Positions 3,076 through 55,505 of a stretch of 64,000 bases of DNA are shown in pieces (positions within the stretch are counted from its first letter, which is position 1; every line of letters begins with the position of its first letter). Under the pieces are notes generated by a model. That model did no database searches and was not told the origin of the DNA. It worked only from the letters and a program-made list of their open reading frames with translations. Source of the stretch: Watersipora subatra (Eukaryota > Bryozoa > Gymnolaemata > Cheilostomatida > Watersiporidae); assembly GCF_963576615.1 (NCBI RefSeq), contig NC_088708.1, positions 53,617,196 to 53,681,195 of the forward strand, given 5' to 3'. The translations under genes were made by a program, and so were the position numbers.

Positions 3076-3670
3076 ATGGTGGCGCAGCATGAGCATTGCG
3101 AACAATGTTATGACATGAACTGTCAGTTGGTGCTCACACCAAACGTTGAAGAAAACTGTTGCAAAGTGGTAGCTTGTCCATCTGGTTGTGAAACTCGTCT
3201 TCATGAATGCAAAGTCGAGGAGCATCAAGAACATATCTGCACTAGTCACGTGGTACCTTGCATCAACAGTAGTTATGGCTGTCCACACAAGTTCTCACGA
3301 AACAAACTCATATCTCACCTGCACCACTGCCCAGCCAGTGTCGTGACGTGTAAACTAGAATGGAATCGTGAGCTTGTTAGATCTCAACCGAATCTACAGG
3401 CAACTGAACGTCCTCAGAATGTTTCTGATATATTAGACATCTCTCTTGCTGCGAAAGATAAGCGCATTCTAGAAGCTTCTTTGAGAATGCCAAAGAGCTT
3501 ACGAAATGCTCTACAGAATACATATACAAGGAACTTCCCTGCTGTTCCTTTCGTTCAAAGGAGCAGTGACGTACCTGAGGAAGACACTGCAGATAACGGT
3601 ATTGATTGTCTGCTCTTTCCTCAGACACAGGACGCGAAGGCAGGCTGTCAAGCCCATCGGGATATTCCAG
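3076..3670 (+). CDS. FBXO30: F-box gene coding exon 1 (TRAF-type zinc finger)
   Basis: Encodes the start and the zinc finger: CEQC, CPSGC, HECKVEEH, CINSSYGC and HLHHC spacings give repeated Cys/His pairs. It ends CCAG|GTGACC at 3670 in phase 1. Using this donor gives IP-GLANSINNAL across the junction, which fits the family. Reading on runs into unrelated residues and a stop. Confidence 0.88.
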
Positions 3671-6600: not shown

Positions 6601-9600
6601 TTATTATAATTTAAATTCATCATTCCGAGTGAGCATGTCATATAATAATGATAGTAACAATCTAATGTGAAAAATGGTTTACTGAACTATTTGCTAGAAA
6701 AATACTACCCTGGCAGTCCGGTGAGAGATTTTTAGATGTAATTGTACAATTATTCCAAAATGAAAAAAGTCTGTCGATTGGCACAGGCGCTAGTGTCAGT
6801 CTATTAAACAGAAAGTTGCGAGTACAAATCCCGTTAAAAACAGTATTTTTTCCTAATCTCTAAGCATGGTTCTGAGCAGACGGGCAGCTTCTATTATAGT
6901 AAAAATCATGTTTGGCTGGCTTAATCTTCGCAAAATGTTAACGTATTGGTGCAATGACATCATACAGACTAGCCAATAATCCAATGGATGTTCTAAATCA
7001 TCTTGGCAAATTGACTGTCACTAAAACAATGCTATCACGTGATTGGTTGATTATTAAAATACATAGCGCAATATTCACCTTGAACTCCTCTCTTTAGTCT
7101 AGCCTGATAAACAGCTATTTAGGTGATACTTGTTATTTAAAGGTAAGAAAGATTGCTGTGTTTGCCCTTATATAGGTCTCGCGAATAGCATCAACAACGC
7201 CCTCACTAAAATCAGGAATGACCAGTCACAGGACAAGAAGGTTCAAAAAAAAGAATCTGAAATTATAACAGAAAAGGATCGAAAAGTTGACCTAAATCTT
7301 CACTTGGGACAGGAAATGTATAGTTCATTTAGAGCTAAGCCGGAAAATATGATGACATTTTTATGCGCCCAAGACTTCCGCAGAGACCAGTTTTCTTCGC
7401 ACTACCTCACTTCTCACATGGTCATCCAAACAGGTAAGAATACAGCACGACAATACTGAAATAACCAGTCTTTCCTGCCATCATCTAAGTAGAATTTCAT
7501 GTCACTCAAGTAGAACTGTTACAGATACAGCGAGGTGAAAAGTGGTAATATTGAAATTGTGTCACTCATATGGAGATTGCCTCAGAAAGGTTGCGCCACT
7601 CTGATGCTCACAGATGCTTTGACAATATTTAGGCCAAGGCTGTAAAGCCCAACTCTCAATGACTGAGGATAGATAACTCAATGACGGATGACAGATAACT
7701 CAATGACAGACAATAGATAACTCAATGACAGATGATAGATAACACAGTTTACTGGAAGTATCTAGTCTCAACCTAATAATTTGATAGATGTATACTCCAT
7801 AGAGTGCATGAATTGGCTAAAATCATTTTTTTCATTATCTTCAAGCTTAGCCCTAATTATAAGCCAGAATGTGCTCACTAAGAACGGACTCACTATAAGT
7901 CTGTAGATGAGTGAACTCTCTTCATTCTGGTAGGTTTGAACGGATGGTTTCAAGAAAGGTGTCCTCTTGCCACATACGGCTGCCCATTTACACAACAGCG
8001 ATTCATCACTGATAAACATGAGCGAACATTCTTCAATCCTGTCACCGACAGTTTTTATCTCGGCTCTGCCATAGAACCTGGTAAAGACTTTCAAGTTTGT
8101 ATCGGGTCACTCATGTGTGTCCCCACTAATGTCTCATAGTTTTAGCCTCATACGGTGCGTGCGCAGTTTTCACATGCTTCAATTATTTGATAACAGCAGG
8201 TGAGGATTTCACCGTGGAGTGAGCTGAACCTTCTTTATGTTACTAATAGTCACACTTTGGTTTTGTGTTTATGTCAAGTTAGTGTAGGCTGCGTTTACAC
8301 TAATGAATGTTTAGATTTTGCTATTAACTTGGTTGGTTGTTCGAAAAGTTTTCGATTCTTAGTCAATTAATAATTTCACTAAATTTTAAGCATATAAGAA
8401 AAATCACTCTCTACTCATCAGATCTATCATAGCCATAAGTACTTCGATATGCAATGTATGGTATAACTTTTTTTACGATTCTAATCATCACAAGATATTA
8501 ACTTTTTGTTCTCTTTGCTGTTTGCATCGCCTTTTACAATTCCATTCGTTTCACCATTTAAAAACTTCGGAAAGTTTTTTATTTTAGTTATATTTATGAT
8601 GGTGTAAGCCAACAAAAACAGATTTTACTTGTAGTTGAGGTCGTACAAATGGACTGTGTATTTTGGGTGCAGGAATTGTTTGTCGTAAAATTTATGCAGA
8701 GACAAAGTACTTACAAGACAAGTTTTTATATACAGATAATTCTTTTGTTACATACTTTGTTCGCTTTATTGCCAGGACATTTCGCACCATCCATGTGTTG
8801 CAGACGTAGAGAAGAGTGTTGCAGGGGTAGCTGAGAGTCAGAGAGTACCTGAGGTCTTTTCTAAGCTTCCTGAATTGGTACTTCTTCAACTCTTCAGCTA
8901 CCTTGATTCTCTCAGTATTAAAAACTTGTCCCTGACCTCTAAGGTAAGCATGCTGTCACCCTTTCAAGGTTGATCTGACAGCACTCACACAGCCTTTAGA
9001 CATTAGAAACTAGTGCATCGAGTACTTATATAAAACTAGTTGAAACCTCGGCATTGCGCAGGTAGTGAAATAATTACCCAAGAATTTGAGTAACTTAAGC
9101 TAGTACCTTGAAGGTTGACTTGCAACAAAATTCACATTACAGTTATTTGGTAGCAAAAGATTCACCATGTCTTACTCTGCTGTTTTGTAGGTGCAAAATA
9201 TGTGGAAATGTGATTACAAGCTTTTAAAAGCTCACAAACGAATAGTTGATCGCAGCCATCACGAAAACGCTGTAGATTGGAATCCCTTCCCAAAATGACT
9301 CAAATGGGACTTAGCTGAACATGATGGCTTCTGTTTACACTTTCATGCAACCTCATTCATCGAAATATTTTCACAAATATACTTCCCGCATTCAATAAAA
9401 CCATGTCTATTGTCATTACGCGTTTATTTCATCATCATTGTAATGCTGTCACTTTGAGCACTGATATCTCAAAACCTACCATAAAAATTTGTTTAACTTT
9501 TTAACTTTAGCTAAAAGGAGTGCATATCATCCTCTGATAAACATGACGAGCCTGTTGGTCATCTGTGATAGTCAAAAAATGCTGCAGAAATTGTTCGCGC

Positions 9601-11148
9601 TATTTGGAAGGAAGTATGGGTCACATGATCAGATTACGACTACTGTAGATGATTAGACCAGTTTGAAACGAAACTGTAAAGTAGCGAGCATCTATTTTTG
9701 ATACAGGCTTTTCTGTAAAACCCGAAGTGTTTGTCATAAACTAGTGCTACAAGATGTTTTATATTGAGCCTTTTATTGGCCTTTCATTTTATGTGATAAC
9801 ATCACGTGTCAAAACAATAATCACAATGTTTGAGTACGTCATCGAAATAAAGAGATTCCAAACTACGGCGTTTTTGTGATGGCTGCGATTAACTGTTCGG
9901 TTTTTTAGCTTTTAAGAGCTTGTAATCACATTTCCACATATTTTGCACCTACAACACAGCAGAGTAAGACATTATGAACCTTTTGATACCAAATAACTGT
10001 AATGTGAATTTTGTTGCAAGTCAACCTTTTAGCTAGTCTAAATCTTTACTATAATAAGAGCCGTATCTGAAGCCAGCTTAATGATCAGTACGTTACGTGT
10101 AATGATCTCTAGCGCAATCATGATGTTCAAGCATGTTAGTAGTAATCAATAGTATTTTCCTTTAGTGTAGAGTATAAGCGCTTTAAGTATGCGTATTTTA
10201 ACCGATGTAATTACTATGACCACAATTTTTTATTGTATAGCAATGTAATTGTTTGGCCTACTGGATAGAAAGTCTTCCTGCAGACCTGGAGGTTCAGAGT
10301 TCAAATTCACCGCACAGTGAATTTTTCATACCAAAAATTTTATCGCTATATCTGGATGAACACCAAACACCAAAGTCTGAGATTTATATATACAGATTTA
10401 CCACAATACCTCTTCCAGTTTCTCCATATGAAGCTAGCAGTAAATCTTTACTATAATAAGAGCCGTGACTGTCCGTCGCCAGGATTAGAGGTTGGGATAA
10501 AAGTTTGCTGTGTACGAAAAAAAGTAAATAAATAAAATATAACACGGATAGAATACACAGTACTGAAACTCATGACATTCAACTTGGTAGACAGACATTG
10601 TAACACCTGTCTAACACCTGTCTAACACCTGTCTAACACCTGTCTAACACCTGCACCAACTGACCACCTTTCGACCTTCTGCAATATTTGTGCAGATAGT
10701 TGTTTATTGTGCTTTAATGGCACACCTGACAGTTTTCCACAGCACACTAGGCTTCCAAGGTATTAGTGACATTAAATATGATACATAGCACAAGAGTTGT
10801 CTGTTCATGTGACATCCTCTAGAGTTGCTGAAGGAGTGTTGTTAGCATTTATGCAAATCCTGTGTCGCCCAGTGACTATGCTATGGTTTTATAATTGATA
10901 AGGAAAATAGCTTGAAATGAGAAACTTTGAACTTGCATAAGTGGTATTGTCATAGTGCTAATGCCAAACTATAAATATATTGTGCTAAATAATCTTGAAT
11001 ATAACTCACATTTTTGAACCTGTCAAAGTACATACATGTATTTCAAATTCTCTCAATATGCAATGTAAGGTAGCTGTGGAGGTAGCTCTTTTTTCCCTCT
11101 CACCCTCTCTCCTCCTCTCTCCTCTCTCTCTCTTCCTCTCTCTCTCTA

Positions 11149-11196
<48 letters not shown>

Positions 11197-14100
11197 TATC
11201 TCTCTCTCTCTCTCTACCTCTCTCTCTCTCTCTCTCTCTCTCTACCTCTCTCTTTACCTCTCTCTTTACCTCTCTCTCTACCTCTCTCTTTACCTCTCTC
11301 TCTACCTATCCTTCTCTCTCCCTTTTCCGTTCTCCCTCTCTCTTCCTTTCTCCCTCTCTCTCCCTCTCTCTTCCTCTCTCTCCCCTCTCTCTCTCCCCCC
11401 CTCTTCTCTCTCCCTCTCTCTCTCGGCCCTCTCTTTCTCTCTCTCTCTCCCTTTTTTCACCTCTCTCCCCCCTCTTACCCCTCTCTCCCCTTCTCTTTCT
11501 CTCTCTCTCCCTTTTTTCACCTCTCTCCCCCCTCTTACCCCTCTCTCCCCTTCTCTTTCTCTCTCTCTCCCTTTTTTCACCTCTCTCCCCCCCTCTTACC
11601 CCTCTCTCCCCTTCTCTTTCTCGCCCTCTCTCTCCACTCTCTCTTTTTCCACTCTTTCTCTTTTCTTTCTCTTTATCTCTGAACTTCCTGTGATAACCAA
11701 ATTATGTTTAAACATTTAAACTGTTCTTATGTTGGTGGGTACATGGTGCTCTTTTGCTCATATACATCTTGTGTTTTTTCATCTTCACCAGTCGTCGTCT
11801 ACAAAGATTTTTGACTCAAAAGAAGTTCCTCTCTGAAACTCACTCGTGCAAATAAGAAAACAGTCTGAAACCATTAAACTGCAATTAAGTATGAAAATAC
11901 AGTCATATACAACATGTACATAATAAATATTGTAAAATGGTTTCTTTTAAATTTGCGTAAAATAGGCTTTATCTAATTTCAATTATGACCTTAAACAGTG
12001 TACTTGTTATATTTATTGACAACAGCAAAGCTATCACGTACATATCTACTGCTCAAAAGATGAAGCATTGGAAAATGTATTCACTTTTAGTGTTTCAATA
12101 ATTAAGTTCAATGTAGCAAGTACTAGAGCTTTAAAGTTGGATATTGTTAATCCCACTAGAAAAATAACACTTTTATTAAAGTTAGAATTCACATCTCTGC
12201 TCATAACTAATAGATTTAATGATCAAACTGAACTAGATCATCACTAGAGGTGTAAAGTGAAGGTAATTTTACTGGATACCTTGCAGTTCATTTAATATAA
12301 CTCACGTAATCTATTTGATGGACTAATGGTTCTTTGCAAACAGAACCTTAACAGCAGCTGTTTTGAATGTCGATAGACGTACACACATAAGAACTACCAG
12401 AGATTTCCTGTTTATACAGTAGGGTATTTACAGTAATTTTCTGTTTGAACAGTAAGGTACTCGCAGTAACTTTTTTGCTTGTACAGCATGGTACTTACAG
12501 GAGCTTTTCAGTTTGTACAGTAATGTACCGATACCTACAGTAATTTTTTTAGTTGTGCAGTAGGGTACTTACAGTGGCTTATCAGTTTGTGCAGTAAGAC
12601 ATTCACTGCAGCTTTTTGTTTATACAGTAGGGTACTTATGGTAGTTTTTTGTCTATCGTAGGGTACCTACAGTAATTCTTTTTTGTACAGTAGGGTACTT
12701 ACAGTAGCTTTTTAGTTTGTACAGTAAGGTACTTACAGCAGCTTCTTAATTGGCACAGTAGGGATTTACAGTCGCTTGTCTGTTTGCACAGTAAGGCATT
12801 CATTGCAGCTTTTTGTTTGTACAGTAGGGTACTTACGGTAGTTTTTTGTCTATCGTAGGGTACCTACAGTAGTTCCTTTTTTGTACAATAGGGTACTTAC
12901 AGTGGCTTATCAGTTTGTACAGTAAGGTACTTACAGCAGCTTCTTAGTTGGCACAGTAGGGGACTTACAGTAGCTTGTCTGTTTGTACAGTAGGGCACTC
13001 ACTGCAGCTTTTTGTTTGTACAGTAGGGTACTTACGGTAGTTTTTTGTCTATCGTAGGGTACCTACAGTAGTTCTTTTTTTGCACAGTAGAGGAATTACA
13101 GTAGCTTGTCAATTTATACAGTAGGGTACTTACAGTAGCTGTTCTGCTCGTAAAATAGGCTACTTACAGTACCTTCTATGTGTATACAGTAGTGTACTTA
13201 CAGTAACTTTCATGTTTATACATTAAAGTACTTACAGTAGTTTTTTTGTACAATAGGGTACCTGCAGTAGCTTGTCAATTTTCACAGTAGGCTACTTCAG
13301 TAGATTTTTTGCTTGCTAAGTAGAGTACTTACAGTAGCTTTTCTTTCTATACAATAATATACTTACAGTAGCTTTTCTGCTTGCATACTAGGGTATTTAC
13401 AGTAGCTTTTGCAGTACAAGTATATTAACCCTTATGCCTATTGTTCACAGGCAATGTACTTGTACACTAGGGTATTTACAGTAGCTGTTGTAGTACAAGT
13501 ATATTAACCTTTATGCCTATTGTTCACAGGCAATGTACTTGTACACTAGGGTATTTACAGTAGCTGTTGCAGTACAAGTATATTAACCTTTATGCCTATT
13601 GTTCACAGGCAATGTACTTGTACACTAGGGTATTTACAGTAGCTTTTGCAGTACAAGTATATTAACCTTTATGCCTATTGTTCACAGGCAATGTACTTGT
13701 ACACTAGGGTATTTACAGTAGCTTTTGCAGTACAAGTATATTAACCTCTATGCCTATTGTTCACAGGCAATGTACTTGTACACTAGGGAATTTACAGTAG
13801 CTTTTGCAGTACAAGTATATTAACCCTTATGCCTATTGTTCACAGGCAATAAGAGATAAATGTTGCGACTTGCTAGACAGCAAAGGAATAGTAGTTTTGA
13901 AATGGAGAAAAATAGATGGAGTTTGGAAGCCTATAGAAAAGGTAAAATAACCCAATTTTAAGCACTAGGGTCCAAGGTCATGCTAACATACAGTCAACCT
14001 CAGTTTTAGACTACACTACATTCAAGAAAGTGTTTAAAGAAGTGAATTATTTGAGTTTCAAAAATGTTTTTCTCGTTGCAAACAAAGTCGATAATTTTAA

Positions 14101-14851
14101 TGCCACAAAACTAGAAGACTTTTCAAAAGATCAAAAGCCAATATACTAGCTATAAGACTGATGAAAACCGAGGTTCAACTGTACATGTGGTAAATGTATG
14201 TTAAAGAAGTTTTGATTCACACATAACATCGCTGCTGTTATGAGTTGCTTTCAATCCATCAATCCACCGATGGACTTCAGTAACAAATCTGGTTCTGTAA
14301 TTTTTGCACGTTTTTTATGAGTACACATGACACAAACCATAATTCTATTCTAATCGTTCATTTGTGCTGCTTTTTACGTGGACAAATGGTGGTTACCTAC
14401 TTACTAGCCATATGGTGCAGAGCCGTATCTTATAGTGAATTGTTGAGGCTATGGCAATGCTTAGAGAGCACGACTCTCAATTAGACTGTTGCAAATAGGA
14501 TTACTGATATTTTAGTTATGTTAAGTATCATTAGTATGAATTTAATATCATGAAATTAGATAATTACCTCTATCAATAGAGCTACTGCAAACTTCTATTG
14601 CATTACTAGCTCTAACTGCAAAGTGTATGACTGTTTTACCATCATTTTAGATATGGAGCTTTAGTAATGCATTCGAAAGGCCGAGAGCTTGGCTATTTGC
14701 GGACAAAATACATATGGGAGAACACTTAAAGACGTGTCCTTATAACATTGATAAGAACCCAAACTCATCTGAGGAGGCGATCATCTCTAACCAGCAAGTA
14801 ATGATGCAGCTGTCTAGAAGGTTGAGCACAGAAAGCACTACATCTGCCTGA
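3076..14851 (+). CDS. FBXO30: F-box only protein 30/40-like, six coding exons
   Basis: Predicted substrate receptor of an SCF ubiquitin ligase. CDS: 3076-3670, 7176-7433, 7934-8080, 8804-8943, 13846-13941, 14651-14851 (1,437 bases, 478 residues). Domains in order: TRAF-type zinc finger with many Cys/His (about residues 7-95, ending HHCPASVVTCKLEWNRE as in FBXO30); a linker (LANSINNALTKIRND matches the family's LAAALDILNTATRD); a second cysteine-containing block, GLNGWFQERCPLATYGC; an F-box (KLPELVLLQLFSYLD, about residues 352-380); and the family C-terminus (RDKCCDLLDSKGIVVLKW, then FADKIHMGEHLKTCPYN). Intron phases 1, 1, 1, 0, 0 join without shifts. It is shorter than vertebrate FBXO30 (about 745 residues), mostly through a shorter linker. 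FBXO40 is the vertebrate paralogue and this gene could stand for both. It is tail to tail with the liprin gene. The exon 3 to 4 junction is the least certain. Confidence 0.87.
5156..5759. mobile_element. TA-bordered MITE of about 0.6 kb
   Basis: The two ends are inverted matches over about 20 bases (CCATATATCCCCGCATATAA at the left; the right end reads, reversed, CCGCATATCCCCGCATATAA). They are flanked by TA at 5154-5155 and 5760-5761, as expected for a Tc1/mariner-type non-autonomous element. No coding capacity was seen. Confidence 0.7.
6056..6300. repeat. Cluster of short palindromes built on ACTCATC and ACTCACT
   Basis: Overlapping inverted copies of GTACTCATCTGTAC-like and TCACTCATTT-like words run through the whole stretch and can fold into several hairpins. 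There is no gene. Confidence 0.6.
6772..6840 (+). repeat. tRNA-derived SINE head (decayed)
   Basis: An A-box-like GGCACAGGCGCTAGTG followed about 35 bases later by a B-box-like GCGAGTACAAATCCCG. There is no complete cloverleaf, so this is a SINE fragment and not a tRNA gene. Confidence 0.35.
7176..7433 (+). CDS. FBXO30: F-box gene coding exon 2
   Basis: Acceptor TTGCCCTTATATAG at 7175; donor CAG|GTAAGA after 7433; phase 1 at both ends. Encodes the linker (LANSINNALTKIRND) and the block FLCAQDFRRDQFSSHYLTSH, which matches the FBXO30 segment C-x-K-x-FRRDEFASHFKNVH. It is lysine-rich in the middle. Confidence 0.87.
7650..7745. repeat. Short tandem array, unit about 24 bp
   Basis: About four imperfect copies of GATAACTCAATGACAGATGATA in the second coding intron. 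Confidence 0.7.
7934..8080 (+). CDS. FBXO30: F-box gene coding exon 3
   Basis: Acceptor TTCTGGTAG at 7933. Encodes GLNGWFQERCPLATYGCPFT, the strongest block shared with FBXO30 (GLNGWMEQRCPLAYYGC). The donor is taken as CCTG|GTAAAG at 8080 (phase 1), which joins in frame to an acceptor at 8803. The alternative is TTTCAA|GTTTGT at 8094 (phase 0) joined to an acceptor at 8775. That adds 14 residues and is also in frame. Confidence 0.75.
8804..8943 (+). CDS. FBXO30: F-box gene coding exon 4 (F-box)
   Basis: Encodes the F-box core KLPELVLLQLFSYLDSLSIK and ends TCTAAG|GTAAGC in phase 0. The 5' edge is 8804 (acceptor TGTTGCAG) or 8776 (acceptor ATTGCCAG), depending on which exon 3 donor is used. 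The F-box recruits SKP1 in this family. Confidence 0.8.
9111..10030. repeat. Large inverted duplication with two arms of about 185 bp
   Basis: 9111-9300 and 9846-10030 are reverse complements of each other with about 10-15% differences, separated by about 545 bases. Both arms contain a splice-acceptor-like TTTTGTAG or GTTGTAG followed by the same open stretch (VQNMWKCDYKLLKA). It lies wholly within the fourth coding intron of the F-box gene. Confidence 0.85.
10245..10330 (+). repeat. tRNA-derived SINE head
   Basis: TTGGCCTACTGGATAG resembles a tRNA A box and GAGTTCAAATTCAC resembles a B box, about 35 bases apart. The flanks do not pair into an acceptor stem, so it is read as SINE-derived. 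Confidence 0.45.
10440..10720 (-). repeat. Dispersed repeat with a CTATAATAAGAGC edge and an 11-bp array
   Basis: Starts with TTTACTATAATAAGAGCC and shares, further in, ACTCATGACATTCA and TTTGTGCAG-like words with 54104-54310. A TAACACCTGTC unit of 11 bp is repeated about five times at 10601-10653, where the other copy has it once. On the minus strand the edge reads GGCTCTTATTATAGTAAA, a SINE tail seen elsewhere in the window. Confidence 0.55.
11090..11690. repeat. 600-bp CT-rich simple repeat
   Basis: Almost pure pyrimidine on the plus strand, (TC)n with scattered A and C. Within 11435-11615 a 60-bp unit (CCCTTTTTTCACCTCTCTCC core) is repeated three times. The long open frames here on both strands (Ser/Leu and Arg/Glu runs) come from the repeat and are not genes. 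Confidence 0.95.
11818..12068. repeat. Copy of a liprin-alpha exon edge and intron
   Basis: About 250 bases matching 19627-19876 with few differences, in the same orientation. The source segment includes the first 13 bases of a liprin-alpha exon (ending at 19639), its splice acceptor and its upstream intron. This copy has no coding partner around it and lies in an intron of the F-box gene. Confidence 0.85.
12405..13379. repeat. Degenerate minisatellite of TACAGTAGGGTACTTACAGTAG units
   Basis: About two dozen irregular copies, 35-45 bp apart, of a unit containing GGGTACTTACAGTAGCTTTTT and TTTGTACAGTAGGGTAC. It runs directly into the 79-bp array downstream, whose unit includes the same TATTTACAGTAGCTTTT core. 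Confidence 0.85.
13380..13850 (+). repeat. 79-bp tandem array duplicating a 3' splice site
   Basis: Six copies at exactly 79-bp spacing. Each contains TGCCTATTGTTCACAG followed by GCAAT, with the AG ending at 13450, 13529, 13608, 13687, 13766 and 13845. The last is the real acceptor of F-box exon 5 (13846). The five upstream copies carry the same branch and pyrimidine region plus the first five exon bases. Confidence 0.95.
13846..13941 (+). CDS. FBXO30: F-box gene coding exon 5
   Basis: Acceptor TTGTTCACAG at 13845, donor GAAAAG|GTAAAA, phase 0 both ends, 32 codons. Encodes AIRDKCCDLLDSKGIVVLKW, matching FBXO30 LMRDVCGSLLQSRGMVILQW, then VWKPIEK. The acceptor is the last of six identical tandem copies. 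Confidence 0.9.
14651..14851 (+). CDS. FBXO30: F-box gene coding exon 6 (C-terminus)
   Basis: Acceptor CATCATTTTAG at 14650; stop TGA at 14849-14851. Encodes IWSFSNAFERPRAWLFADKI and MGEHLKTCPYN, matching the FBXO30 C-terminal block (VWRFSTAF, FADILSMADHLKKCSYN), followed by a Ser/Thr-rich tail ending TTSA. Confidence 0.9.
   Translation: MWSFSNAFERPRAWLFADKIHMGEHLKTCPYNIDKNPNSSEEAIISNQQVMMQLSRRLSTESTTSA

Positions 14852-15280: not shown

Positions 15281-55505
<40,225 letters not shown>

Follow-up and report, generated by a model that had tools for sequence, protein, structure and literature searches.

In a gene of the FBXO30/40 type from Watersipora subatra, a minisatellite appears to have swallowed the 3' splice site of intron 4 and to have expanded together with it, leaving six complete acceptors in a row. 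Our preferred reading, to which we give a probability of about 0.7, is that the last copy is productive, that the other five are probably weak, NMD-eligible decoys, and that the array is likely neutral or mildly costly. The window, i.e. the whole 64,000-nucleotide stretch of DNA that was analysed, corresponds to C1:53617196-53681195, and the genome searches covered 784 Mb in 239 contigs.

The young array occupies positions 13380..13850 on the + strand, where TRF reported a period of 79, 6.0 copies, 97% matches and 0% indels. Each copy carries a branch-like TATTAAC heptamer, a CACAG 22 nt further on and then the five bases GCAAT with which exon 5 begins. The earlier note had described six acceptors with the same signals at an exact 79-bp spacing, and the TRF result and the positions of the 15-mer TTGTTCACAGGCAAT, present six times in steps of exactly 79 bp, agree with it. 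The G residues of the six AGs are at 13450, 13529, 13608, 13687, 13766 and 13845, and the first exon bases behind them at 13451, 13530, 13609, 13688, 13767 and 13846. Motif positions and a signal scan place the five upstream modules (TATTAAC ... CACAG/GCAAT), hereafter called decoys 1 to 5, at 13423..13455, 13502..13534, 13581..13613, 13660..13692 and 13739..13771, all on the + strand. The array thus has the features of a minisatellite or VNTR spanning a splice junction, with a unit longer than 10 bp, an overlap with the exon-intron boundary and a splice site within the unit.

Genome-wide, six matches of TTGTTCACAGGCAAT were reported on the + strand, all inside the array, and one on the - strand of contig C11; the reversed pattern used as a control also gave one - strand match, and these counts are lower bounds. 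A 691-bp query comprising the array and exon 5 returned one full-length and five partial matches, all within intron 4, and it found no second copy of the locus in the one assembly searched. Sequence variants among the copies affect 7 of the first 76 unit positions. None of the seven lies in the last 22 of these 76, a distribution expected by chance with a probability of ~0.09 (hand arithmetic) and giving no clear sign of constraint. The likeness of neighbouring copies does not clearly exceed that in chance orders (88 of 720 are as good) and gives no order of expansion.

Judged from the domains in its translated exons, the gene is FBXO30/40-like, with both zf-TRAF_2 and F-box_4. The coding part of the start-codon exon (3076..3670, + strand, 3' boundary inferred from the frame) encodes a TRAF-like zinc finger, zf-TRAF_2 (Pfam PF15965, E=3.2e-27, 95.4 bits), and the F-box_4 domain (PF15966) was detected at 9e-27, both above the Pfam cut-off. 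The joined exons between them yielded no Pfam family above its cut-off. We infer that one transcript links the two ends, a domain pair that we take to be the FBXO30/FBXO40 layout. Exon 4 (8776..8943, + strand) encodes the N-terminal part of the F-box; its 5' boundary is provisional, with a second possible acceptor ~30 nt downstream. The donor after 8943, AAG/GTAAGC, agrees with a simple consensus at 8 of 9 positions. U12 and U2 introns are told apart by their donor sequences, and a U12-type intron 4 was rejected on the basis of this U2-like donor. Exon 5 (13846..13941, + strand) is a purine-rich exon (0.69) of 96 nt or 32 codons, in phase 0 at both ends, followed by the donor AAG/GTAAAA (7 of 9 consensus matches). 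Exon 6 (14651..14851, + strand), the last coding exon, comprises the C-terminal part of F-box_4, a tail and the stop.

Motif positions, signals and domain homology concur in placing the true 3' splice site of intron 4, from TATTAAC to AG, at 13818..13845 on the + strand. Exons 4, 5 and 6, each taken alone, correspond to the successive F-box_4 stretches 4-33, 35-55 and 71-106. The last residue of exon 4 aligns with position 33, and exon 5 follows with its residues 2-22 on 35-55, so that no gap arises at the 13846 join. With this join the F-box_4 score is 93.7 bits, as against 23.9 for a decoy join (the copy 1 peptide, the only one scored) and 48 when exon 5 is skipped, which keeps the frame as it removes 96 nt. 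Domain homology thus shows the last copy of the array to be the true, productive acceptor. These results lend good support to the suggestion that the last AG is the only one fitted to the exon, as this site alone continues the F-box and enters purine-rich, TAGGG-free sequence.

We also searched the genome for relatives of this gene. The F-box_4 profile, scored exon by exon, gave one reported match, namely exon 6 alone of the present locus (29.3 bits, below the cut-off); the control likewise had a match below the cut-off, in 1 of 14 genomes. With zf-TRAF_2 the best match was again the present locus (97.1 bits; control, 0 of 14), and five weaker matches of 30.1-35.2 bits, above the cut-off, were found on contig C5. 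The latter (L028-L032) cluster at C5:38044960-38642717, within 0.6 Mb, and two of them contain stops. No full paralogue of the FBXO30/40-like gene was found in the genome by these profile searches of limited sensitivity.

Immediately upstream of the young array lies an older, diverged and TAGGG-rich minisatellite of ~34 bp (12405..13379, + strand; TRF matches 68-81%), for which TRF also reported periods of 67, 131, 199 and 233. Its 34-bp motif, with two mismatches at most, had 13 reported matches in the 784 Mb, all in intron 4 and four of them within the 79-bp units; the reversed control had none. Two 20-mers wholly contained in unit positions 1-31 (CTTGTACACTAGGGTATTTACAGTAGCTTTT) matched the older array at 17 of 20 and 19 of 20 positions, and six 20-mers at unit offsets 20 to 70 matched it at 11-13 of 20, which is chance level for 300 random 20-mers (mean 11.7, maximum 15). 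The 79-bp unit is therefore a chimera of 31 bp of older minisatellite, 45 bp from the end of the intron and the edge of the exon, and 3 bp of filler. These boundaries were set by eye, positions 32-76 being the native intron end plus GCAAT and the filler being GTA. The chimeric unit and the restriction of the 34-bp motif to this intron suggest that a local minisatellite extended to the exon and carried the acceptor along. The earlier note's proposal that the expansion had captured the exon edge is thereby well supported. Its statement that the two arrays share a core holds for TTACAGTAGCTTTT, which has three matches, and fails for the exact TTTACAGTAGCTTTT, which has none; the exact common core is thus one base shorter than first claimed. 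A dispersed repeat as the source of the array was looked for and not found with the 691-bp query or with the 34-bp motif search, both of which may skip very common words.

Minisatellites are common in the window: after merging TRF rows by hand we counted 25 arrays covering 5572 bp, or 8.7% of its length. Intron 4 contains other repeats. A large inverted repeat at 9104-9288 and 9850-10035 has arm segments of 136 nt (92% complementary) and 53 nt (87%), which are 660 and 561 nt apart, and looks like a fold-back (MITE-like) element. A 249-bp repeat at 11820-12068 recurs on the same strand further down the window, at 19627-19875 (89.6% identity). A CT-rich stretch at 11097-11680 includes a 60-bp pyrimidine array (97% matches), and the GC skew of the 10001-12000 bin is -0.389. 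Further along the window, exon-like minus-strand frames at 17636-24839 presumably belong to a liprin-alpha-like gene with SAM domains.

Entry at any of the five upstream acceptors reads 18 codons and then meets TAA, in line with the stop that had been predicted within about 19 codons. The fact that 79 cannot be divided by three is of little consequence, since the frame already closes at the TAA of whichever unit is entered first. The decoy-extended exons would measure 175-491 nt. A stop codon more than 50-55 nt upstream of a later junction generally elicits NMD, and for all five decoys the TAA lies 118-434 nt ahead of the exon 5/6 junction, the anatomy of alternative splicing coupled to NMD. 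Decoy use that varies with tissue or dose could consequently tune the level of the F-box protein, given five complete acceptor modules, each with an NMD-eligible product. The report of the present locus alone in the F-box_4 genome search speaks weakly in the same direction, as it concerns exon 6 only and a score below the cut-off. Against such regulation, the array looks young and locus-specific, and the absence of variable sites from the last 22 of 76 positions provides no clear constraint. Unproductive splicing could tune the gene, but this is unsupported: the anatomy allows it, the sequence gives it no preference over neutral growth, and we regard it as unlikely. NMD can give shelter to new introns whose splice sites are weak (available text of PMC2809761).

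The core signals hardly distinguish the six sites. TATTAAC occurs once per unit (17 times in the window), its last A being 22 nt before the G of the AG, and in copies 1 and 6 positions -20 to -5 contain 12 pyrimidines out of 16. As these signals are shared, site strength has no power to explain a preference for the last copy. The sequences that follow the AGs do differ. The 96 nt behind the true AG have a purine fraction of 0.69, 18 GAA/GGA/AGA/GAG triplets and no TAGGG, whereas behind the five decoys the purine fraction is 0.46-0.52, one TAGGG is present in each case and the triplets number 0, 0, 0, 0 and 5, the last value arising where the stretch extends into exon 5. Within the array, no donor-like site exceeds 6 of 9 consensus matches, compared with 8 for the exon 4 donor and 7 for that of exon 5. 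A putative 21-nt in-frame microexon after decoys 1-4, AG/GCAATGTACTTGTACACTAGG/GTATTT, was judged unlikely with its 6/9 donor; after decoy 5 the donor position reads GAATTT rather than GTATTT.

The density of TAGGG per kb is 15.4 in the older array, 12.9 in the young array and 0.7 in the window, the last figure including both arrays (21 of the 45 TAGGG). This enrichment arises because one unit is repeated. Within its 975 bp the older array has 15 TAGGG, as well as 26 acceptor-like YAGs preceded by 11 or more pyrimidines out of 16, so that acceptor-like AGs already abounded at this end of the intron when the capture took place. For hnRNP A1 the selected binding motif is UAGGGA(U), and purine-rich enhancers recruit SR proteins (PMC3794818, as far as its available text goes). 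These motifs are vertebrate ones, and their roles are extended to the Watersipora subatra gene by analogy.

Given the like core signals, the first copy to be transcribed could win. If upstream acceptors dominated in this manner, the allele would be hypomorphic and the copy number would set the output of the gene. The similarity of the six cores and the plausible size of the 175-491-nt exons are compatible with this. However, the decoys are followed by TAGGG-bearing repeat and not by exon, the distal site wins in the CBS case discussed below, and the intact F-box frame suggests a working output, all of which makes dominance of the upstream sites quite improbable.

The sequence CAG/GCAATG might also be dual-specific, serving both as acceptor and as GC donor, in which case the 79-nt units would be GC-AG introns, respliced stepwise down to the true exon. 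Each acceptor indeed precedes GCAATG (GCAATA in the last copy), with 6 of 9 matches to the donor consensus when the C at +2 is counted as a miss, and every unit has its TATTAAC. Yet +5 and +6 are T and G, which is not donor-like, and GC donors normally require a strong context. There are precedents for the elements of such a scheme in the available parts of two reports: splicing occurs at tandem dual-specific AGGT sites in the human UBC gene (PMC10809524), and in Drosophila introns can arise from duplicated AG/GY proto-splice sites (PMC2891723). If it were real, the ladder would be self-correcting, any decoy-spliced transcript being ratcheted unit by unit to the true exon, and the array would represent a recursive-splicing track derived from a minisatellite; we consider this very unlikely. 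Falsely repeated copies in the assembly are hardly credible, for although miscounts are common in tandem arrays, the copies carry variants at 7 positions and the 471-bp array sits inside a contig of >53 Mb, presumably from a long-read assembly.

Masking of the decoys by RNA structure was considered as well and was rejected as anything more than a side lead, as it was not robust under shuffles, context changes or growing prefixes. The unit contains an inverted repeat, GUACAAGUAUAUU / AAUGUACUUGUAC, of 13 bp with one wobble or 9 bp without. As the 3' arm of this repeat spans the duplication junction, only in copies 1-5 can the acceptor be enclosed; the true copy cannot form the hairpin. Of the decoys, copies 1, 3 and 4 were folded locally and gave -18.3 kcal/mol, against -11.4 for the true copy. 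An equally long stem occurred in 12 of 1000 shuffles with the wobble and in 24 of 1000 without. The local folds had z-scores of -1.85 to -1.88, with 10 of 200 shuffles folding as well, and the array plus exon 5 a z-score of -0.93, with 18 of 100 shuffles as good. Pairing between neighbouring units competes with the hairpin (-16.8 versus -18.3), and the within-unit stem had a probability of 0-0.48, mostly <0.1, at spans of up to 120. The probability of the AG being unpaired depended on context (0.03-0.44 for decoys, 0.03-0.86 for the true copy), and the branch-like heptamer showed little consistent difference in pairing between decoys and true copy. With shuffled downstream sequence, values as low or lower were obtained in 6 and 29 of 150 shuffles in two contexts for the copy 4 decoy; the true site in copy 6 was ordinary (49 and 51 of 150).

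We favour the following history for the captured acceptor. An old ~34-bp minisatellite would have stood at the 3' end of intron 4 of the FBXO30/40-type gene. Tandem duplication of a segment reaching from the last minisatellite unit to five bases inside exon 5 would then have copied the whole acceptor module, i.e. the branch-like TATTAAC, the pyrimidine tract, the AG and GCAAT, and slippage or unequal exchange would have brought the copies to six. It is the chimeric nature of the unit that suggests duplication followed by growth. The last copy alone adjoins the real exon and, by domain homology, is the productive acceptor. The five upstream copies lead into TAGGG-bearing repeat with weak donor-like sites and probably act as weak decoys under exon definition. 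Their use would open a frame ending in TAA 118-434 nt before the next junction, and NMD of the decoy-spliced RNA is probable. Most probably the array is neutral or carries a mild cost; productive output, or the in-frame loss of exon 5, could be modulated by its length. Copies 1-6 amount to a natural competition experiment, with same-core acceptors in cis that differ mainly downstream. They could show whether transcription order or exon context decides the choice of acceptor, and they bear on how well a gene tolerates a growing ladder of decoys.

Several known systems resemble parts of this arrangement; we compare them on the portions of the cited reports available to us. The human CBS 844ins68 allele is likewise a tandem duplication carrying a 3' splice site and an exon edge, and the distal of its two tandem sites is strongly favoured (PMC2630376; that text speaks of 'donor' sites but refers to Romano 2002, whose title concerns 3' splice site selection). 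It has one extra copy rather than five and, as far as can be seen in that text, no older minisatellite as a base. In the human ABCA7 intron 18 VNTR, a splice site also lies inside the minisatellite unit, the 25-bp unit starting with the GT of the exon 18 donor; retention of one unit, which was independent of array length, creates a premature stop, and longer arrays show more in-frame skipping of the exon that follows (PMC5954066). By analogy, the length of the present array may affect the skipping of exon 5. The ABCA7 VNTR differs in being on the donor side, in having a unit without branch point, tract or exon bases, in being highly polymorphic and in having been tested at the RNA level. The human FAM20C VNTR, which may be the closest known case, likewise spans an intron-exon junction, with a reported effect on alternative splicing; this comparison relies on a one-sentence description that does not give the side of the exon (PMC5941971).

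Minisatellites that form internal tandem repeats at exon-intron boundaries within human segmental duplications alter gene structure and can give rise to novel introns (PMC2812944). Those repeats differ from ours in lying mostly within exons that become introns, and the available text describes no acceptor ladder. The human UBC array has regularly spaced splice signals, one per tandem unit (PMC10809524), as does the present array, but its sites are AGGT in coding repeats with in-frame units, whereas ours are AGGC, intronic and in units that are not a multiple of three. NAGNAG tandem acceptors also provide several acceptors for one exon; their AGs are 3 nt apart, however, and not 79 nt, and each copy here has its own branch-like site. 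Tandem duplications can create introns from AG/GY sites (PMC2891723). Among the titles, opening lines of abstracts and text passages covered by the literature searches, which drew on an incomplete collection, we found no acceptor-side minisatellite with several complete modules. Splice-junction minisatellites, a duplicated acceptor, intron birth from AG/GY sites and dual-specific arrays are thus already known, and a six-copy array of whole branch-to-exon acceptor modules is apparently new. It illustrates one step by which minisatellites may capture splice signals and seed new introns or isoforms.
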